64,000 bases of DNA from Rhizobium sp. Q54 (lineage in GTDB: Bacteria; Pseudomonadota; Alphaproteobacteria; UBA2966; CAIVPW01). Both the position numbers and the translations under genes were made by a program. Within the stretch, counting starts at the first letter, position 1; the number at the start of each line of letters is the position of its first letter. The notes under the pieces are model-generated. The model was not told the origin of the DNA and did no database searches. It saw only the letters and a list, made by a program, of their open reading frames with translations. This document shows positions 11,698 through 54,541 of the stretch, piece after piece. The stretch lies in NCBI GenBank assembly GCA_945904955.1, contig CAMDPO010000001.1, positions 92,293-156,292 on the forward strand, written 5' to 3'.

Positions 11698-13239
11698 ATG
11701 CCCAACGCGCTTCCCATCACGCGACGCGAGAATTTCGCGGACTGGTACCAGGCCGTGGTGAAGCTCGCCGACCTCGCCGAGACCTCACCGGTGCGCGGCT
11801 GCATGGTCATCAAGCCGTGGGGCTGGGGCATCTGGGAGCGCATCCAGCAGCAGCTCGATGCCCGGTTCAAGGCGACCGGCCACGAAAACTGCTACTTCCC
11901 CCTGTTCATTCCGATGAGCTTCATCGCCAAGGAAGCGGAGCACGTCGAGGGATTCGCCAAGGAGATGGCGGTGGTCACACACCATCGCTTGAAGTACATC
12001 GACGGCAAGCTGCAGCCCGACCCCGACGCCAAGCTCGAGGAGCCGCTGATCGTCCGGCCGACGTCGGAGACCATCATCGGCGACGCGTTCAGCCGCTGGA
12101 TTCAGAGCTATCGCGATCTGCCACTGTTGATCAACCAGTGGGCCAACGTAGTGCGATGGGAGATGCGGCCGCGCCTGTTCCTGCGCACGACCGAGTTCCT
12201 TTGGCAGGAGGGACATACCGCGCACGCCGACCACGACGACGCCATGCGCGAGACGCGCCAGATGCTCGAGGTCTACCGGACGTTCGCCGAGGATGTGCTG
12301 GCAATGCCGGTGGTTGCCGGCGAAAAGTCGGAGAACGAACGGTTCCCCGGCGCCGACAACACGTACTCCATCGAAGCGATGATGCAGGACGGCAAGGCGC
12401 TACAGGCCGGCACGTCCCACTACCTGGGCACGCACTTCGCCGAGGCACAGAACATCAAGTACCAGACGGCGACGGGCGAGACAGCGTTTTGCCACACTAC
12501 CAGCTGGGGCGTCTCCACGCGCCTGATCGGCGGCGTGATCATGACCCATGGCGACGACGACGGCCTGCGCCTGCCGCCCGCCATCGCGCCCCATCAGATC
12601 GTCATCCTGCCGGTGCTGCGCGATCGGCCAGACGACGCCGATGCGATGAGCTTCTCGGAGGACCTCGCGCGGGCGCTCAGTATGCAAGGCGCGCTGGGTG
12701 CGCCGGTGCGCGCCTTGGTTGACAAGAAGGCCGGCCGCGCGGTCGACAAGCGCTGGAATTGGGTGCGGCGCGGTGCGCCGATCATCCTCGAAATCGGCAG
12801 CCGGGATGCGGCCGCCAACCGCGTGACGTACCTGCGCCGTGACCAGATGTACGACGGAACGCCAGCCAGCAAGGCGAAGATGCAATCCGAGGACGTCGAG
12901 CCGTTCGTCAAGGGCATCGGCGCACTCCTGGAGAGCATCCAGAAGTCGCTGTTCACGGAGGCCCAGACGCGCATGCGCGGCGCCATCCGCAACGACCTGA
13001 AGACGTGGAAGGACATCACCGCGTACTTCGGCAAGGACGACGACGGCGAGTTCAAGGGCTGGGTGCTGGCGCCGTGGTCGAAGCCGACCGGCGACGCGCT
13101 GGAGAAGGTCACCGCCCAGCTCAAGGAGCAGCAGCTCACCGTTCGCAACGCGCCGCTGCATCAAGCGGCGTCGCGCGGACCCTGCGTCTTCACCGGCGCG
13201 CCCGGTGTCGAGGAAGTGCTGATCTCGCGCGCCTACTAG
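11698..13239 (+). CDS. proS: Prolyl-tRNA synthetase, archaeal/eukaryotic type
   Basis: Charges tRNA-Pro with proline. The 513-residue protein clearly belongs to the archaeal/eukaryotic class (type 3): motif 1 region GCMVIKPWGWGIWERIQ, ENCYFPLFIP, RPTSETII, the motif 2 loop NQWANVVRWEMRPRLFLRT, FLWQEGHTAHA, ALQAGTSHYLG, and a C-terminal domain ending in the family's terminal tyrosine (SRAY). The zinc-site cysteines of many members are reduced to a single Cys near the end (GPCVFTG). The ATG at 11698 follows a good ribosome-binding site (AGAGGT); the longer frame upstream has no family match. It points opposite to both neighbours and ends 4 nt into the next convergent gene. Alphaproteobacteria usually carry the short bacterial type here. 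Confidence 0.95.
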   Translation: MPNALPITRRENFADWYQAVVKLADLAETSPVRGCMVIKPWGWGIWERIQQQLDARFKATGHENCYFPLFIPMSFIAKEAEHVEGFAKEMAVVTHHRLKYIDGKLQPDPDAKLEEPLIVRPTSETIIGDAFSRWIQSYRDLPLLINQWANVVRWEMRPRLFLRTTEFLWQEGHTAHADHDDAMRETRQMLEVYRTFAEDVLAMPVVAGEKSENERFPGADNTYSIEAMMQDGKALQAGTSHYLGTHFAEAQNIKYQTATGETAFCHTTSWGVSTRLIGGVIMTHGDDDGLRLPPAIAPHQIVILPVLRDRPDDADAMSFSEDLARALSMQGALGAPVRALVDKKAGRAVDKRWNWVRRGAPIILEIGSRDAAANRVTYLRRDQMYDGTPASKAKMQSEDVEPFVKGIGALLESIQKSLFTEAQTRMRGAIRNDLKTWKDITAYFGKDDDGEFKGWVLAPWSKPTGDALEKVTAQLKEQQLTVRNAPLHQAASRGPCVFTGAPGVEEVLISRAY

Positions 13240-13706
13240 CGCGGCGGAGGCGTATTCGCGAGCAGCTGCCGGCAGGCGGCGAGAAGGTCCGCGTCGGCGG
13301 TTGGCCCCAGTGGCTGACCGTTGAACGTGGTGTGGCCGTCGCTCAGGCGGATGCGTAGCTCGCCGACGTTGGCGCGCAGCTGCTCGAGCCCGCGCGGCGG
13401 TACGCGCCCCAAGAATGTGAACACGTCCGGCGTCACCGGCAGCACGAGTTCATCGGGCAAGGTGAGCCGCGGCGCTCCGCCAAGGTCGGCGGGAGCGACC
13501 GGATTGCCGCGCACATCGATGCCGGGGACATAGTCGGCGCCCGCCACAGTGCGTCCCGCCGGCGGCGCCGCGGCGCGGTCGGCGGTCGCAACGATGCTGC
13601 GGCACGTGGCAAAGGGATCGGCTTGAGCGACCGCCACCCCTGCCGGCATCAGGACGGCGAGGCCTGCGGCTGCGGCGTACCTACGAACGGAAGTCGATCC
13701 ACGCAT
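13236..13706 (-). CDS. Predicted exported protein of unknown function
   Basis: I do not recognise this 156-residue protein. It starts with a basic stretch and a hydrophobic core ending in VAVAQA, a likely Sec signal peptide, followed by a mature part of about 125 residues with a central LPDELVLPVTPDVF segment and two cysteines (ATCRS, LAACRQ) that could pair in the periplasm. It overlaps the DUF1467 gene by 26 nt and shares 4 nt with the convergent proS. Its position at the end of the nuo-birA-coaX-rnj-DUF1467 series suggests cotranscription. No function can be assigned. Confidence 0.7.
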   Translation of the reverse strand: MRGSTSVRRYAAAAGLAVLMPAGVAVAQADPFATCRSIVATADRAAAPPAGRTVAGADYVPGIDVRGNPVAPADLGGAPRLTLPDELVLPVTPDVFTFLGRVPPRGLEQLRANVGELRIRLSDGHTTFNGQPLGPTADADLLAACRQLLANTPPPR

Positions 13707-44786: not shown

Positions 44787-46094
<1,308 letters not shown>

Positions 46095-46099
46095 GGTAA

Positions 46100-46480
<381 letters not shown>

Positions 46481-46488
46481 CCGCCGTC

Positions 46489-46505
46489 TGCCCCTTGAAG
46501 GGGCA
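46489..46505 (+). other. Small hairpin after glnK
   Basis: TGCCCC / GGGGCA with a 5-nt loop starts 8 nt after the glnK stop. No T-run follows, so it is at best a weak terminator or 3' stabiliser. Confidence 0.35.
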
Positions 46506-46590
46506 ACCGGCCGCACTACATTACGAAGCACCCCCCCCTTGGGCAACCGCCGCGTCGGTTCCTCTCGCTACTCGCACTAGGTCTAGGACC

Positions 46591-46630
46591 CGCGCAATCC
46601 CGCGTAATCCCGCGTAATCCCGCGTATTTT
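46591..46630. repeat. Tandem 10-bp repeat (CGCGTAATCC type)
   Basis: Four direct units of exactly 10 bp: CGCGCAATCC, CGCGTAATCC twice, then a degenerate CGCGTATTTT, followed by a palindromic ACGCGT. It lies between glnK and the tail-fibre-like gene, about 70 bp before that gene's promoter. The 10-bp period equals about one helical turn, so repeats would face the same side of the DNA. Confidence 0.75.
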
Positions 46631-46678
46631 ACGCGTCTCAGCGGCCGCGCGGCGCCATCCGACTAGATACAATTCGTG

Positions 46679-46709
46679 TTGACTTTCGGGGCCCGATGTA
46701 ATACATTAC
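46679..46709 (+). promoter_or_regulatory. Promoter and operator-like palindrome of the tail-fibre-like gene
   Basis: A -35 box TTGACT (46679-46684), 17-nt spacer, and -10 box TACATT (46702-46707). The -10 lies inside a perfect palindrome GTAAT-AC-ATTAC (46698-46709), a natural place for a repressor. The half TACATTACG also occurs alone at 46517-46525. Confidence 0.5.
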
Positions 46710-46743
46710 GTGTCGTTCCCTCCCTGAAGGACGACATACCCCC

Positions 46744-49077
46744 ATGACCACCTACTCCATCGACCAGAACCTTACGACGACGAGCGCGCCCACGTTCAAC
46801 GGCCTCGAGCTGGGCAACACGCTCGTCATGGACGGCGCCGCGATCAACGAAGCCGAGGAGATCGAGGTCAACGCCACTGCCGAAACGACGATCGGCAACG
46901 TCGACTCCAACAACGTCCGCATCGCCGGTTCCGAGACCATCACCGCGTTCGACGCCGCCGACGCAGGCATCGTGCGCCGCGTCCGCTTCACCGGTGTCTG
47001 CACCCTCACCCACAACCCGACGTCCCTGGTGCTGCCGGGCGGCGCCAACATCACCACCGCCGTCGGCGACTGCATGATCGCCGAGAGCTACGGCCTCGGT
47101 AACTGGAAGGTCCTCTTCTACCAAAAAGCCTCCGGCCTCGTGCCCGGCCTCGGCACCATGGCTACCCAGAACGCCAACAACGTCGCCATCACCGGCGGCA
47201 GCATCACCGGCATCACCGATCTGACGGTCGCGGATGGCGGCACCGGCGCGAGCACCGCCGCCGGCGCGCGAACGAACTTGGGCGTCGGCACTGGTGACAG
47301 CCCGGAATTCACCGCCGTGAATATTGGCCATGCGAGCGACACTACCGTCGCGCGCGCCTCGGCGGGCGACATCAGCGTCGAAGGCAACATCGTCTACCGC
47401 GCCGGCGGCACCGACGTCCCCGTCGCCGACGGCGGCACCGGCGCGAGTACTGCGGCAGGCGCTCGTTCCAACTTGGGCTTGGCGATCGGCACCGACGTGC
47501 AGCCGTACGACGCGGATCTCGCGGCCCTGGCGGCATTGACGCCTACCGATAACAACATCATCGTCGGCAACGGCTCCGCGTGGGTTGCGGAGAGCGGTGA
47601 CACGGCACGCACGAGCGTCGGCGTCGGATCGGCCGACAACGTACAGCACGCGACGCTGGCACTCGGCGGCGCCCGCACCGAGGGCGTGGTGCAGATCAAC
47701 CCTGGTGCGGCTGGCTCCGTCACCGCCCCGATCAATGGCGACGAGCTCGTCGTCGAAGGGTCCGGTACGACCGGCATATCGATTCTGATGCCGGACGCGA
47801 ACTCCGGATTTGTCTTCTTCGGGTCGCCATCGGACAACGACTACGCCTATGTCGCCGCCGGGTACGACGCGGGCACACCTCACCTCGGACTGAGCACCAA
47901 CCGCGCCGGGGGCAAGCTGACGTTCGAGGTCGAGGTCGGCAGCGGCCGCGGAGAGTGGAGCGATGCGGGCCTCGCCATGTACGCCTCCGGCGTCACGCCG
48001 CAGCACGACGGCACGCTGCACGTGATGGAGGGTAACGCCGGAACCGTCACCGTGAACAGCCAGGTGAACACCATCGTTGCGGAAAGCAACGGCAACGGGG
48101 GCATCACCATCGTCACGCCTGACGCCAACGGCGGGTACCTCGACTTCACGTCGCCCTCTACCACAGCCACGCAGGGCGGCCGGGTCGAATGGAACTACAA
48201 CAACGGTGCGCTTGGTCTCTCCACCAACAAGTCGGGCGGAAAGCTACAGTTCCTCGTCGATAGCCAGAGCCTGCGCGGCGAGTGGAACACCACGGGCCTG
48301 ACGGTTCTTGCATCTGGCGCCACTACGCAGCATGACGCTCCCCTTCACGTCCTGGCCGGCAGCGCCGGCTCGGTATCTGCGGTCGGCAGCGGCGCAGCGG
48401 TCTTCGAGAGCAACAGCAATTGCCACATTCACTTGCTGTCCCCCGACGCCAACAGCAGCACGATCTATTTCGGGTCTCCCTCCGACAACGACTACGGCTC
48501 CATCACCGGCAGCTACAATTCGGGGACGGAGCAGATCCAAATCTCTTCGGCGAACCTCGGATCGTTGATCGTGCGAGGCGGCAATGGAGATGACGGCGTT
48601 CTCATCATCAATGGCGCGGCAAGCACACCTAGAGGTGCGGAAATTTCTTTCACAAATGCTTCGCCGAACAACACAACGCAGTTCTTCCTGCGTTGCGTCG
48701 ATAGCGGCCCAAGCAACCGTTGCTACATCATGTCCAACGGCAACCTGCAAAACGCCAACAACAGCTATGGGGCTATCTCGGACGAACGTTTGAAGCGTGA
48801 TGTTCGCGTCGCGAGCTCGCAGTGGGGCGACGTGAAGGCACTCGCGGGACTGGTAAAGAAGTTCCGCTTTAGTGCCGATGTGGCCACCAACGGCAACGCT
48901 CCACTGTTGCTTGGCTGGATCGCCCAGGACGTCCAAAAGGTAAGCCCCGGTCTCGTTGCCGAAGGCCCGGATGGCATGTTCGGCGTCCAATACAGCATCG
49001 CCTACATGAAGGCCTTCAAGGCCCTCGGCGAGGCGATGGAGCGCATCGAGCGGCTCGAAGCCAAATTCGCCGCGTAA
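46744..49077 (+). CDS. Phage-tail-fibre-like protein with S74 self-cleaving chaperone domain
   Basis: A 777-residue protein built like a trimeric tail fibre. The first 160 residues are beta-rich; two near-identical VADGGTGASTAAGARxNLG segments (about 162-180 and 228-246) are typical of fibre shafts. Three repeats of about 109 residues follow (about 317-422, 424-531, 533-611), each with a GxAGxV start, PDANxG, an SPS motif, LSTNxxGGKL, GEW and QHD. Residues about 679-777 form the peptidase S74 intramolecular chaperone domain: SDERLKRDV with the catalytic Ser and Lys, then LLGWIAQDVQKVSPGLV and a terminal coiled coil (EAMERIERLEAKF). Such domains trimerise the fibre and cleave themselves off. 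No phage structural genes, signal peptide or secretion genes lie nearby, so its role is open. Confidence 0.85.
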   Translation: MTTYSIDQNLTTTSAPTFNGLELGNTLVMDGAAINEAEEIEVNATAETTIGNVDSNNVRIAGSETITAFDAADAGIVRRVRFTGVCTLTHNPTSLVLPGGANITTAVGDCMIAESYGLGNWKVLFYQKASGLVPGLGTMATQNANNVAITGGSITGITDLTVADGGTGASTAAGARTNLGVGTGDSPEFTAVNIGHASDTTVARASAGDISVEGNIVYRAGGTDVPVADGGTGASTAAGARSNLGLAIGTDVQPYDADLAALAALTPTDNNIIVGNGSAWVAESGDTARTSVGVGSADNVQHATLALGGARTEGVVQINPGAAGSVTAPINGDELVVEGSGTTGISILMPDANSGFVFFGSPSDNDYAYVAAGYDAGTPHLGLSTNRAGGKLTFEVEVGSGRGEWSDAGLAMYASGVTPQHDGTLHVMEGNAGTVTVNSQVNTIVAESNGNGGITIVTPDANGGYLDFTSPSTTATQGGRVEWNYNNGALGLSTNKSGGKLQFLVDSQSLRGEWNTTGLTVLASGATTQHDAPLHVLAGSAGSVSAVGSGAAVFESNSNCHIHLLSPDANSSTIYFGSPSDNDYGSITGSYNSGTEQIQISSANLGSLIVRGGNGDDGVLIINGAASTPRGAEISFTNASPNNTTQFFLRCVDSGPSNRCYIMSNGNLQNANNSYGAISDERLKRDVRVASSQWGDVKALAGLVKKFRFSADVATNGNAPLLLGWIAQDVQKVSPGLVAEGPDGMFGVQYSIAYMKAFKALGEAMERIERLEAKFAA
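47692..48576 (+). repeat. Three internal protein repeats of about 109 residues
   Basis: Repeat starts fall at about residues 317, 424 and 533, each opening with a GxAGxV turn and ending in QHD (the third is degenerate after SPSDNDYG). The copies share motif order but not DNA identity, so the duplication is old and not an assembly artefact. Confidence 0.7.
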
Positions 49078-49090
49078 ACTGACGGCGATC

Positions 49091-49131
49091 GGCCGCGTCC
49101 GGAACCAACCGGGCGCGGCCACCGTCGTTTT
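49091..49131 (+). terminator. Rho-independent terminator of the tail-fibre-like gene
   Basis: GGCCGCGTCCGG pairs with CCGGGCGCGGCC (12 bp, one G-T wobble, 6-nt loop), an outer GACGG/CCGTC can extend the stem, and GTTTT follows. It begins 14 nt after the stop codon, so the gene is a self-contained transcription unit. Confidence 0.75.
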
Positions 49132-49145
49132 GGTAGGTTGGCCCC

Positions 49146-50420
49146 ATGCACGTCCTCGTCCTCGGCGCCGGAGTCGTCGGCATCACCACCGCGTACGCGC
49201 TGGCGGAAGCCGGTGCGCGCGTCACGGTCATCGACCGGCGCTCAGGTCCGGCGCAGGAGACGAGTGCCGCCAACGGCGGACATCTTTCGGCGAGCCAGGC
49301 GCGGCCGTGGGCCACCCCCGCGGTACCGCGCCAGCTCGTAAAGTGGCTCGGTCGCCCCGACGCGCCGTTGCGGCTGCCGTTGGCGCGCTGGGATCCGGAA
49401 CTGTGGCGATGGGGCATGCGCTATTTGCGCAACTGCACGCCGGCGCGATACCGCGCCAATGCCCAATCCTTGCTTAGTCTCGCGCAGCTCAGCAGCGACG
49501 CGCTGGAGGACATTGTCGCGTCATCCGGCGTCGAGTTCGATCACCACACCGGTGGGCTGCTCCATCTGAATCGATCCGCGAAGTCTCTCGATCGCGCCCA
49601 GCGCGACACCGAGCGTTTGCTTGTCGGTGCCGACCTGCTCACCGCCGAGGAATGCGCCCGCATCGAGCCGGCGCTGGCCAGCGCGGGCGCGCGCGGTCTC
49701 ATCGCCGGCGGGCTGCTGTATCGCGACGCCTCCACAGGCGATGCCGCCAAGTTCACCGCCGCGCTCGCGGCCGCCAGCGCGCACCGACAGGTCGCGTTCC
49801 GCTACGACACGGAGGTCGATCGCATCGAGGTCGCCAGCCGCACCGCCACGGGCGTACACACTGCGGCCGGACTGGAGGCGGCCGACGCGATCGTCGTCGC
49901 GCTCGGCATGGGCAGCCGCGCCCTGCTCGCGCCCCTCGGCATCGACCTGCCGCTCTATCCGGTGAAAGGCTACTCGATCACCCTGCCCGCCTCGCCTGCT
50001 GAGCCGCGCCTGCCACGCATCGGCATCATCGACGATGATCGCAAGGTCGTGTTCGCGCGCTTCGGCACGACGCTGCGCGGCGCGGGGACTGCCGAGTTCG
50101 CCGGCTTCGACACGCGCATCGACGATCGCCGCGTGCGCCCCATTCTCGCTGCGGCCCAGGAGCTGTTTCCGGGTCCGTTCGATGGAGCCACCGCGGCGGA
50201 TGCCAACGCGTGGACGGGCCTGCGTCCCATGACTCCCGACGGTCCGCCCATTCTTGGCGCGGCGCCAGGCGTCGCCGGCCTCTTCCTCAACACCGGGCAC
50301 GGCCCCCTCGGATGGACTCTGGCCGCAGGCTCCGCGCGCATTCTGGCCGATCTCGTCCACGAGCGGACGCCGCCGCTCGATCCCGCGCCCTATTCCGTCG
50401 CCCGTTTCCATGCACAATGA
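49146..50420 (+). CDS. FAD-dependent D-amino-acid dehydrogenase (DadA-like)
   Basis: A 424-residue flavoenzyme of the DAO family. It opens with the dinucleotide-binding fold VLVLGAGVVGITTAYALAEAG followed by a VIDRR acidic strand end, then ETSAANGGHLSASQARPW (the FAD-contacting segment seen in DadA), a substrate domain, and the C-terminal WTGLRPMTPDGPPILG and LFLNTGHGPLGWTLAAGSA flavin signature. It probably oxidises D-amino acids to 2-oxo acids and ammonia and feeds electrons to the respiratory chain. The neighbouring nitrogen genes fit but do not prove a role in nitrogen supply. Confidence 0.88.
   Translation: MHVLVLGAGVVGITTAYALAEAGARVTVIDRRSGPAQETSAANGGHLSASQARPWATPAVPRQLVKWLGRPDAPLRLPLARWDPELWRWGMRYLRNCTPARYRANAQSLLSLAQLSSDALEDIVASSGVEFDHHTGGLLHLNRSAKSLDRAQRDTERLLVGADLLTAEECARIEPALASAGARGLIAGGLLYRDASTGDAAKFTAALAAASAHRQVAFRYDTEVDRIEVASRTATGVHTAAGLEAADAIVVALGMGSRALLAPLGIDLPLYPVKGYSITLPASPAEPRLPRIGIIDDDRKVVFARFGTTLRGAGTAEFAGFDTRIDDRRVRPILAAAQELFPGPFDGATAADANAWTGLRPMTPDGPPILGAAPGVAGLFLNTGHGPLGWTLAAGSARILADLVHERTPPLDPAPYSVARFHAQ

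Positions 50421-52492: not shown

Positions 52493-54541
<2,049 letters not shown>

Follow-up and report, generated by a model that had tools for sequence, protein, structure and literature searches.

A lone phage-type tail-fibre gene with a Peptidase_S74 domain inserted between glnK and dadA of Rhizobium sp. Q54

The main finding of this work is that a gene for a 777-residue fibre-like protein in Rhizobium sp. Q54 is an insertion of about 2.45 kb between glnK and dadA, and that the gene is, as judged by modules homologous to those of tailed-phage fibres, of phage type. In our view, it is probably a captured, moron-like single phage fibre gene that sits as an autonomous unit between the two host genes, most likely as incidental cargo. 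The observations behind this reading are the insertion itself, an intact frame, the phage-type modules, an N-terminus that does not resemble a signal, and searches in which no tested particle gene exceeded its cut-off. All coordinates refer to the window, the whole 64,000-nucleotide stretch of DNA that was analysed, and the locus is laid out as follows.

46142 to 46480, plus strand: glnK (P-II nitrogen regulator), left flank; Pfam P-II match with E 1.7e-34
46649 to 49111, plus strand: insertion, approximate extent relative to the empty site of relative G004, from blastn blocks and a pairwise alignment of the junctions
46744 to 49077, plus strand: fibre gene; ATG start, 777 aa, no internal stop
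49146 to 50420, plus strand: dadA, coding for D-amino acid dehydrogenase, on the right flank; scores 452.8 bits with NCBIfam NF001933 (cut-off 383)

The first-pass annotation had called for a homologue search for conserved neighbours. In all seven relatives examined at the site (G001-G004 from the same genus and G005-G007 from the same family, with the contig of G006 ending inside dadA), glnK and dadA are directly adjacent without an insert, roughly 30-254 bp apart, as against 2.67 kb here. The blastn match to the nearest relative, G004, ends at 46648 and restarts at 49112, with about 70 bp of other sequence replaced. The simplest account is a gain in this lineage after its split from the relatives. 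No target-site duplication was recognised by eye at the junctions, and no second genome with the same insertion was found among the seven relatives compared at the site or the 96 related genomes searched for relatives of the protein. Whole-protein relatives were present in two of these 96, the genome under study included; the other belongs to G014, a genome of the same order, and shares 47% identity over residues 594-776. Beside this relative, G014 carries a duplicated fibre 3′ end and a small ORF. The first-pass annotation had named homologues always confined to intact prophages, or a frame broken in sister strains, as findings that would speak against it; the gene lies in no recognisable prophage and its frame is unbroken, but the only relative within the order, that of G014, lies at a contig end. 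Elsewhere in the window, a deletion likewise sets another gene, near 53.55 kb, apart from its relatives.

The protein is built from the following modules.

46861 to 47133, plus strand: N-terminal beta domain (residues 40-130); module present in 54 viral loci, AlphaFold2 pLDDT 95-98
47689 to 48009, plus strand: shaft repeat 1 (residues 316-422); shares 45% identity with repeat 2 and occurs also in viral loci L208-L211
48016 to 48342, plus strand: shaft repeat 2 (residues 425-533); 45% identical to repeat 1, E 2.5e-23
48343 to 48525, plus strand: shaft repeat 3, partial (residues 534-594); 39% over 64 columns, E 7e-8
48778 to 48957, plus strand: Peptidase_S74 intramolecular chaperone/protease domain (residues 679-738), from the Pfam profile and the motif SDERLK

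The fibre-like protein of 777 residues described in the first-pass annotation stands: the plus-strand ORF at 46744-49077 is intact over 777 codons and ends in a Peptidase_S74 domain, which is the single domain found by Pfam, and PHROGs places the protein in tail fibre families (best E 1.1e-14). Both the ORF with its S74 domain and the shaft repeats are more than chance; in 50 shuffles of the fibre protein, the repeat query reached at most 26.2 bits. Of the three 109-residue repeats originally proposed, two are full-length, but the third is alike over about 61 residues only (534-594, 39%). The claim of a complete S74 domain is well borne out, with the PF13884 profile matched over positions 1-57 of 58 at 26.6 bits (cut-off 22) and the Ser and Lys of SDERLK (residues 679-684, 48778-48795) forming the SDxxxK dyad S679/K684. 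A 14-row alignment with viral relatives shows no variation at the S, D and K of this motif. Searched against solved structures, the profile of that alignment matches 6f45 (long tail fibre distal subunit), 7dc3 (myelin regulatory factor), 8jov (putative tail fibre) and 3gud (neck appendage protein); its match to the Bd2133 chain (8ond) covers a 30-position stretch of shaft before the S74 domain and none of the S74 domain itself. Because the AlphaFold2 monomer model of the S74 part is poor (mean pLDDT 60.5), the S74 assignment rests on sequence. Residues 41-130 were modelled far better (pLDDT 95-98), and fold searches with this N-terminal domain gave middling matches to a tailspike depolymerase, a phage capsid spike, tailspike TSP4, baseplate chains, StcE and T4 gp9, as well as to a chaperone-substrate complex (6o38), all below the tool's clear level (Z 4.3-7.7; Foldseek E no better than 0.013). 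T4 gp9 (1qex) and the T4 baseplate chain 5iv5_AC both scored Z 4.3. With matches this far below the clear level we assign the domain no function on their basis, and it may still anchor the fibre to a tail.

Relatives of these modules were found in viral fibre genes, a result that, together with the site being empty in all seven relatives, supports the original suggestion of a cargo gene left by a phage. Searching viral contigs with the whole protein found 98 loci, of which 80 were kept, and most match only within residues 92-296; taken separately, the N-terminal domain was found in 54 loci, the shaft repeats in 4 and the C-terminus in 26. The best viral match of the C-terminus is 54% identical (L134-L137, over 115-122 residues), and the longest matches, to L211 and L208, run from residue 135 on through the linkers and shaft at 36-37% identity over about 450-480 residues. 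A 403-residue protein, L210, covers the linker, repeats and S74 domain in overlapping pieces. The contigs encoding the fibres L208, L210 and L211 also carry scaffolding, virion structural and portal genes, respectively, and by eye L208 and L211 start with a domain of about 50 residues that is absent from the 777-residue fibre. Among 50,697 phage records, 31 match the fibre protein and none does so over 80% of the query; the set yielded no donor phage carrying the entire gene. GTDB species genomes yielded three loci with a relative, namely a Flammeovirgaceae contig (L093) and two contigs from a single Defluviimonas, with matches within residues 135-357; a search of 61 genomes with the N-terminal module by itself matched only the genome under study and G018. 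We also considered a plasmid origin and rejected it, with two of 72,556 plasmid records matching, both in the N-terminal module only. A plasmid search with AmtB matched many different genera, at about 50% for the best.

Codon usage suggests that the gene is a mosaic, host-like at its 5′ end and atypical at its 3′ end. On a scale set by ten neighbouring host genes, which themselves span -0.17 to +0.15, the first 111 codons score +0.16 (glnA, +0.15), while the last two 111-codon stretches score -0.27 and -0.19, below all ten. Third-position GC is 0.93 at the 5′ end and lower, 0.67-0.73, towards the 3′ end; the S74 end may come from a lower-GC source. The foreignness of the 3′ end is suggestive only, because the whole-gene value of -0.067 lies inside the host range and stretches of 111 codons are noisier than whole genes in this comparison.

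Several candidate control elements surround the coding sequence.

46495 to 46525, plus strand: host promoter-like site after glnK (TTGAAG...TACATTACG), also in the empty allele of G004
46679 to 46710, plus strand: promoter-like site in front of the fibre gene (TTGACT-17-TACATTACG); the genome has seven sites of this kind
46698 to 46709, no strand assigned: palindrome GTAATACATTAC over the -10, with 5-bp arms
46712 to 46735, plus strand: leader hairpin predicted by RNA folding, its 3′ arm holding a possible ribosome-binding site, AAGGA (46727-46731)
49091 to 49120, plus strand: terminator-like hairpin of 12 bp without a clean T-run, from RNA folding; its right arm overlaps the right junction

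The local promoter scan lists the pair TTGACT-17-TACATT at 46679-46707 as the sole sigma-70-type site in 45500-50000, and since shuffles give 0.5 such sites (sd 0.8), a single site is not above chance. Genome-wide, the pattern TTGA, 16-20, TACATTACG occurs at seven sites as against 0 for the reversed pattern. The fibre gene thus appears to have a host-class promoter, because the motif recurs across the genome and one of its sites, that after glnK, is also in G004; expression of the gene in its host from the predicted promoter would be plausible. The first-pass annotation had described a promoter with a palindrome over the -10, and both the pair and the palindrome are indeed present, but the site taken alone does not rise above the shuffles. 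The arms of the palindrome are only 5 bp long, and since its TACATTACG part recurs in the six other promoter-like sites, it is not peculiar to this gene; that it implies tight control is unproven. At two of the other sites (C16 and C48), a palindrome of the form TGTATC-N4-GATACA lies over the -10, unlike GTAAT-AC-ATTAC at the fibre gene, and the differing palindromes therefore do not establish a common regulator. A phage origin of the promoter was considered and set aside: the viral contig L088 has the same pattern, but its GC content is 46% and its site precedes a small gene, and we therefore treat the pattern as an ordinary strong promoter. Downstream of the promoter-like site, the predicted leader hairpin (-8.6 kcal/mol for 46712-46760) could restrain translation. 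As for the gene having its own terminator, a strong 12-bp hairpin is present in the predicted fold (49078-49140, -37.3 kcal/mol, z -4.5), but it was not listed by the terminator scan and no T-run directly follows the stem.

The absence of phage around the gene, as originally claimed, was confirmed within the limits of our searches. Only the fibre itself, among 30 ORFs in 30001-64000, matches a viral set that comprises 1,664 ORFs and covers 158 loci, and its flanks are glnK and dadA; the lack of a viral-set neighbour is weak evidence, in the window included, given that the same set missed locus L224, which is phage by PHROGs. Where PHROGs matched any of the six genes flanking the fibre, it did so only with families of unknown function. 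Searches of the genome (2.38 Mb in 64 contigs, 94% complete) found no tail sheath (PF04984), HK97 capsid (PF05065) or GTA TIM barrel (PF13547), and the best matches to baseplate J (PF04865; 12.5 bits, cut-off 21.1) and Terminase_6N (PF03237; 12 bits with a stop inside, cut-off 22) fell short. These five Pfam families do not span every phage or particle type; among 14 control genomes, each family is matched over its cut-off in 1 to 6. A prophage or prophage remnant was accordingly rejected on the lack of a phage-like neighbour in 30001-64000 and of a match over the cut-off for four virion families.

A survey of S74 domains in the class provides a context for the N-terminus of the protein. The domain is present in 32 of 387 genomes of the class, and it occurs once in the genome under study. 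From 20 of the other 31 positive genomes, we picked one locus each by hand rather than at random. Nine of the 20 are phage or phage-like (L212, L213, L214, L215, L216, L220, L221, L224 and L227), as called by the viral ORF set with PHROGs added for L214, L216 and L224; ten have no phage-like neighbour (L217, L218, L219, L222, L223, L225, L226, L228, L229 and L230), and L231 is unplaced. For L223 and L225, the ORFs with a match do not include the S74 gene itself, and the contigs of L217 and L220 are shorter than 4.5 kb. At seven of the ten lone loci, the protein starts were inspected by eye, and six are signal- or pilin-like (L219, L222, L226, L228, L229 and L230) whereas L218 is not. By inspection, the fibre protein has no signal peptide: K and R are absent from residues 1-40, a hydrophobic core is missing, and hydropathy over 12 residues peaks at 1.11 in the first 60 windows. 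The gene is a third sort within the class: of phage type, with no phage found and no export signal.

Probably, the space between glnK and dadA received a single phage gene, for a tail fibre or receptor-binding protein, once this species had split from its relatives. The gene would now form an autonomous moron-like transcription unit, preceded by a promoter of host type and followed by a terminator-like hairpin. Expression, trimerisation, cleavage and any role of the product are what we infer. Three chains would trimerise with the help of the C-terminal S74 domain, which would then cut the chain at S679 to release about 99 residues and leave a stiff fibre made up of the beta domain, glycine-rich linkers and about 2.6 shaft repeats. 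Cutting of the chain by the Ser-Lys dyad is established for the S74 family, with PMC10769870 demonstrating it for Bd3182, and self-cleavage would be expected here too. The product should thus trimerise and self-cleave in the cytoplasm and, with neither an export signal nor virion genes found, would stay there until lysis. We regard the fibre as, most likely, incidental cargo of phage origin. Should it serve a purpose, the leading possibility is interference with incoming phages, either through receptor masking after lysis or by meddling with tail assembly, rather than adhesion.

Some features of the gene sit less comfortably with captured cargo. An intact frame behind a host-type promoter could mean selection for use, whole-gene codon usage falls within the host range, the five Pfam families leave some phage and particle types uncovered in a genome that is about 94% complete in 64 contigs, and the search turned up no whole-gene donor phage. 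An alternative is that the fibre has been kept as a blocker of phages that use the same receptor or as a poison of their tail assembly, as the stand-alone unit, host-class promoter and intact frame would allow. Precedents exist in the chimeric cryptic-prophage fibre StfE2, described in PMC12529663 as blocking T2 adsorption in E. coli, and in the Tai proteins, whose reported targets, in PMC11364771, are the central tail fibres of phages within the cell. Against this, PADLOC gave no match for the fibre and none that was convincing for four neighbours, and the Tai proteins are not described as S74 fibres in the passages devoted to them in PMC11364771; we consider an anti-phage fibre unlikely. A more specific version strikes us as quite unlikely: recruitment of the fibre, as a single gene under a host promoter, into a cytoplasmic anti-phage device. 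Its self-processed trimer would either be set free by lysis and cover the receptor on kin nearby, or combine with the fibres that an infecting phage makes, so that the progeny are spoiled or retargeted.

The first-pass annotation had also raised a domesticated adhesin and a contractile-particle fibre, and neither fared well. A surface adhesin like the MAT fibres of Bdellovibrio would share an S74 domain with SDxxxK, and the C-terminal profile reaches 8ond, albeit in the shaft stretch and not in S74; MAT proteins are, according to PMC10769870, bacterial fibres of which 13 of 21 carry S74. The same source places a conserved beta domain of about 130 residues right after the signal peptide in 21 of 21 members, and the lack of a recognisable signal peptide here argues against a secreted adhesin of this kind, as does the comparison with the lone S74 proteins of the class, six of seven of which are export- or pilin-like at the start when this fibre is not. 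An adhesin is thus a decidedly improbable reading. Instead, the fibre could serve a particle with its remaining genes elsewhere in the genome, be it a gene transfer agent, a tailocin or a defective prophage, and real examples can be cited, such as Rcc00171, the tail fibre of RcGTA (as presented in PMC7296036 and PMC10218006), and genome G151 of the class, in which an S74 fibre adjoins tail proteins. However, none of the five families (HK97 capsid, Terminase_6N, tail sheath, baseplate J and GTA TIM barrel) has a match over its cut-off. This speaks against a prophage and against a tailocin or gene transfer agent, and the two contractile-tail families are without one in a genome that is 94% complete; we judge this very improbable. 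The least probable explanation of all is an assembly artefact in which a phage fragment or strain variant was joined into the contig. The assembly is a draft of 64 contigs, and the gene near 53.55 kb that departs from its relatives could be read in the same way, but both junctions run into syntenic host genes, so that two precise misjoins would be needed, and the promoter belongs to a genome-wide class and the 5′ codon usage is host-like.

Captured phage cargo, as we read the locus, can be set beside several known systems. Phage morons are autonomous single-gene inserts of phage genomes, and the fibre gene resembles them in having its own promoter-like site, one gene, a terminator-like hairpin and a position between genes that are adjacent in relatives; it differs in lying in a bacterial chromosome and in being a virion gene rather than an accessory one. 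A search of the open-access literature for exact phrases denoting a lone, orphan or domesticated tail fibre returned no match, and we make no claim of absence in print. The gene for Rcc00171 lies apart from the main RcGTA cluster and, like the fibre gene here, has no particle genes adjacent to it. The RcGTA particle genes are nonetheless in its genome, as described in PMC7296036, whereas here none of the five tested families is over its cut-off. Charybdis elements, considered and rejected as a parallel, are circles of about 4.6 kb with some ten genes in the description of PMC12324425, unlike a single fibre gene.

The closest likeness in the protein itself is to the S74 fibres and spikes of phages (PF13884), among which PMC10769870 counts the T5 L-shaped fibre and K1F endosialidase as intramolecular-chaperone proteins. 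The present fibre shares with this group the C-terminal S74 domain with SDxxxK, linkers and shaft repeats found in viral fibres, and profile matches to 6f45 and 3gud; in contrast to them, it has no virion genes adjacent or, by five families, over the cut-off in its genome, and no phage record matched more than 80% of it. The MAT superfamily of Bdellovibrio, as portrayed in PMC10769870, is likewise a case of bacterial genes for phage-fibre-like proteins with an S74 tip, but the fibre described here has no signal peptide, carries an N-terminal viral fibre module and arrived by a recent insertion, and there is one S74 gene in this genome as against 13 in the MAT set. StfE2, in the account of PMC12529663, is also a phage-type fibre gene in a host without a virion; it belongs to a cryptic prophage and is switched by inversion, whereas no prophage, and no recombinase beside the fibre, was recognised here. 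The locus offers a clean case in which one virion gene, not a prophage, has moved into a bacterial chromosome, with an empty site in seven relatives and a host-class promoter. If it is not expressed, the gene would be an example of phage gene debris; if it is, the fibre would test whether a lone self-maturing fibre acts outside a particle, as StfE2 does in E. coli.

The promoter-like TTGA...TACATTACG pattern, one copy of which lies just after glnK, is followed at several of its sites by a further motif and a hairpin:

46495-46635 in the window; also at loci L242, L243, L245 and L096: TTGA...TACATTACG, then CGCG(T/C)AATCCCGCG, then a hairpin

At four of the seven sites in the bacterium's own genome, the promoter-like sequence is followed ~40-140 bp downstream by CGCG(T/C)AATCCCGCG and a short hairpin, of which CGCGTATTTTACGCG is an example, and the same order recurs at a promoter-like site in G004, the nearest relative. 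One stem pair differs between the two genomes, being T-A in the window and C-G in G004. Rfam, searched at gathering thresholds, has no entry over the window's motif-hairpin stretch (46495-46635). The arrangement may be a small RNA; alternatively, it may represent a family of intergenic repeats.

Further along the window, a second fatty-acyl-AMP ligase-like gene (52493-54541) is split over two frames with a break near 53554. Relatives hold unbroken copies, and G004, G002 (same genus) and G007 (same family) carry ~155 bp at the break point that the window lacks. Either the sequence was genuinely deleted here or the assembly is faulty.

Parts of the window's S74 fibre also have relatives in other bacterial genomes. 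Its N-terminal module has a relative at L241 (G018:C7), and its linker part has one on a Flammeovirgaceae contig (L093). The module is also shared by an S74 fibre at L216 (G151:C9), beside which lie a phage tail protein and a phage protein that resembles glycoside hydrolases, in what is possibly a GTA-like or prophage cluster. In G014, a genome of the same order, locus L100 (contig C131) carries an S74 fibre 3' end in duplicate (12045-12412 and 13051-13448; 86-88% identical) close to plsY, followed by a small coiled-coil-like ORF, and is a possible array of fibre ends.

The fibre's shaft holds a repeat:

47689-48525 in the window, + strand; also at viral loci L208-L211: 109-residue shaft repeat, pattern GEWNTTGL..ASGVTPQHD..LHV

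A whole-protein search of solved structures (E up to 1) gave no match over this part; in the viral fibres of L208-L211, the repeat is a tandem module whose copy number varies.
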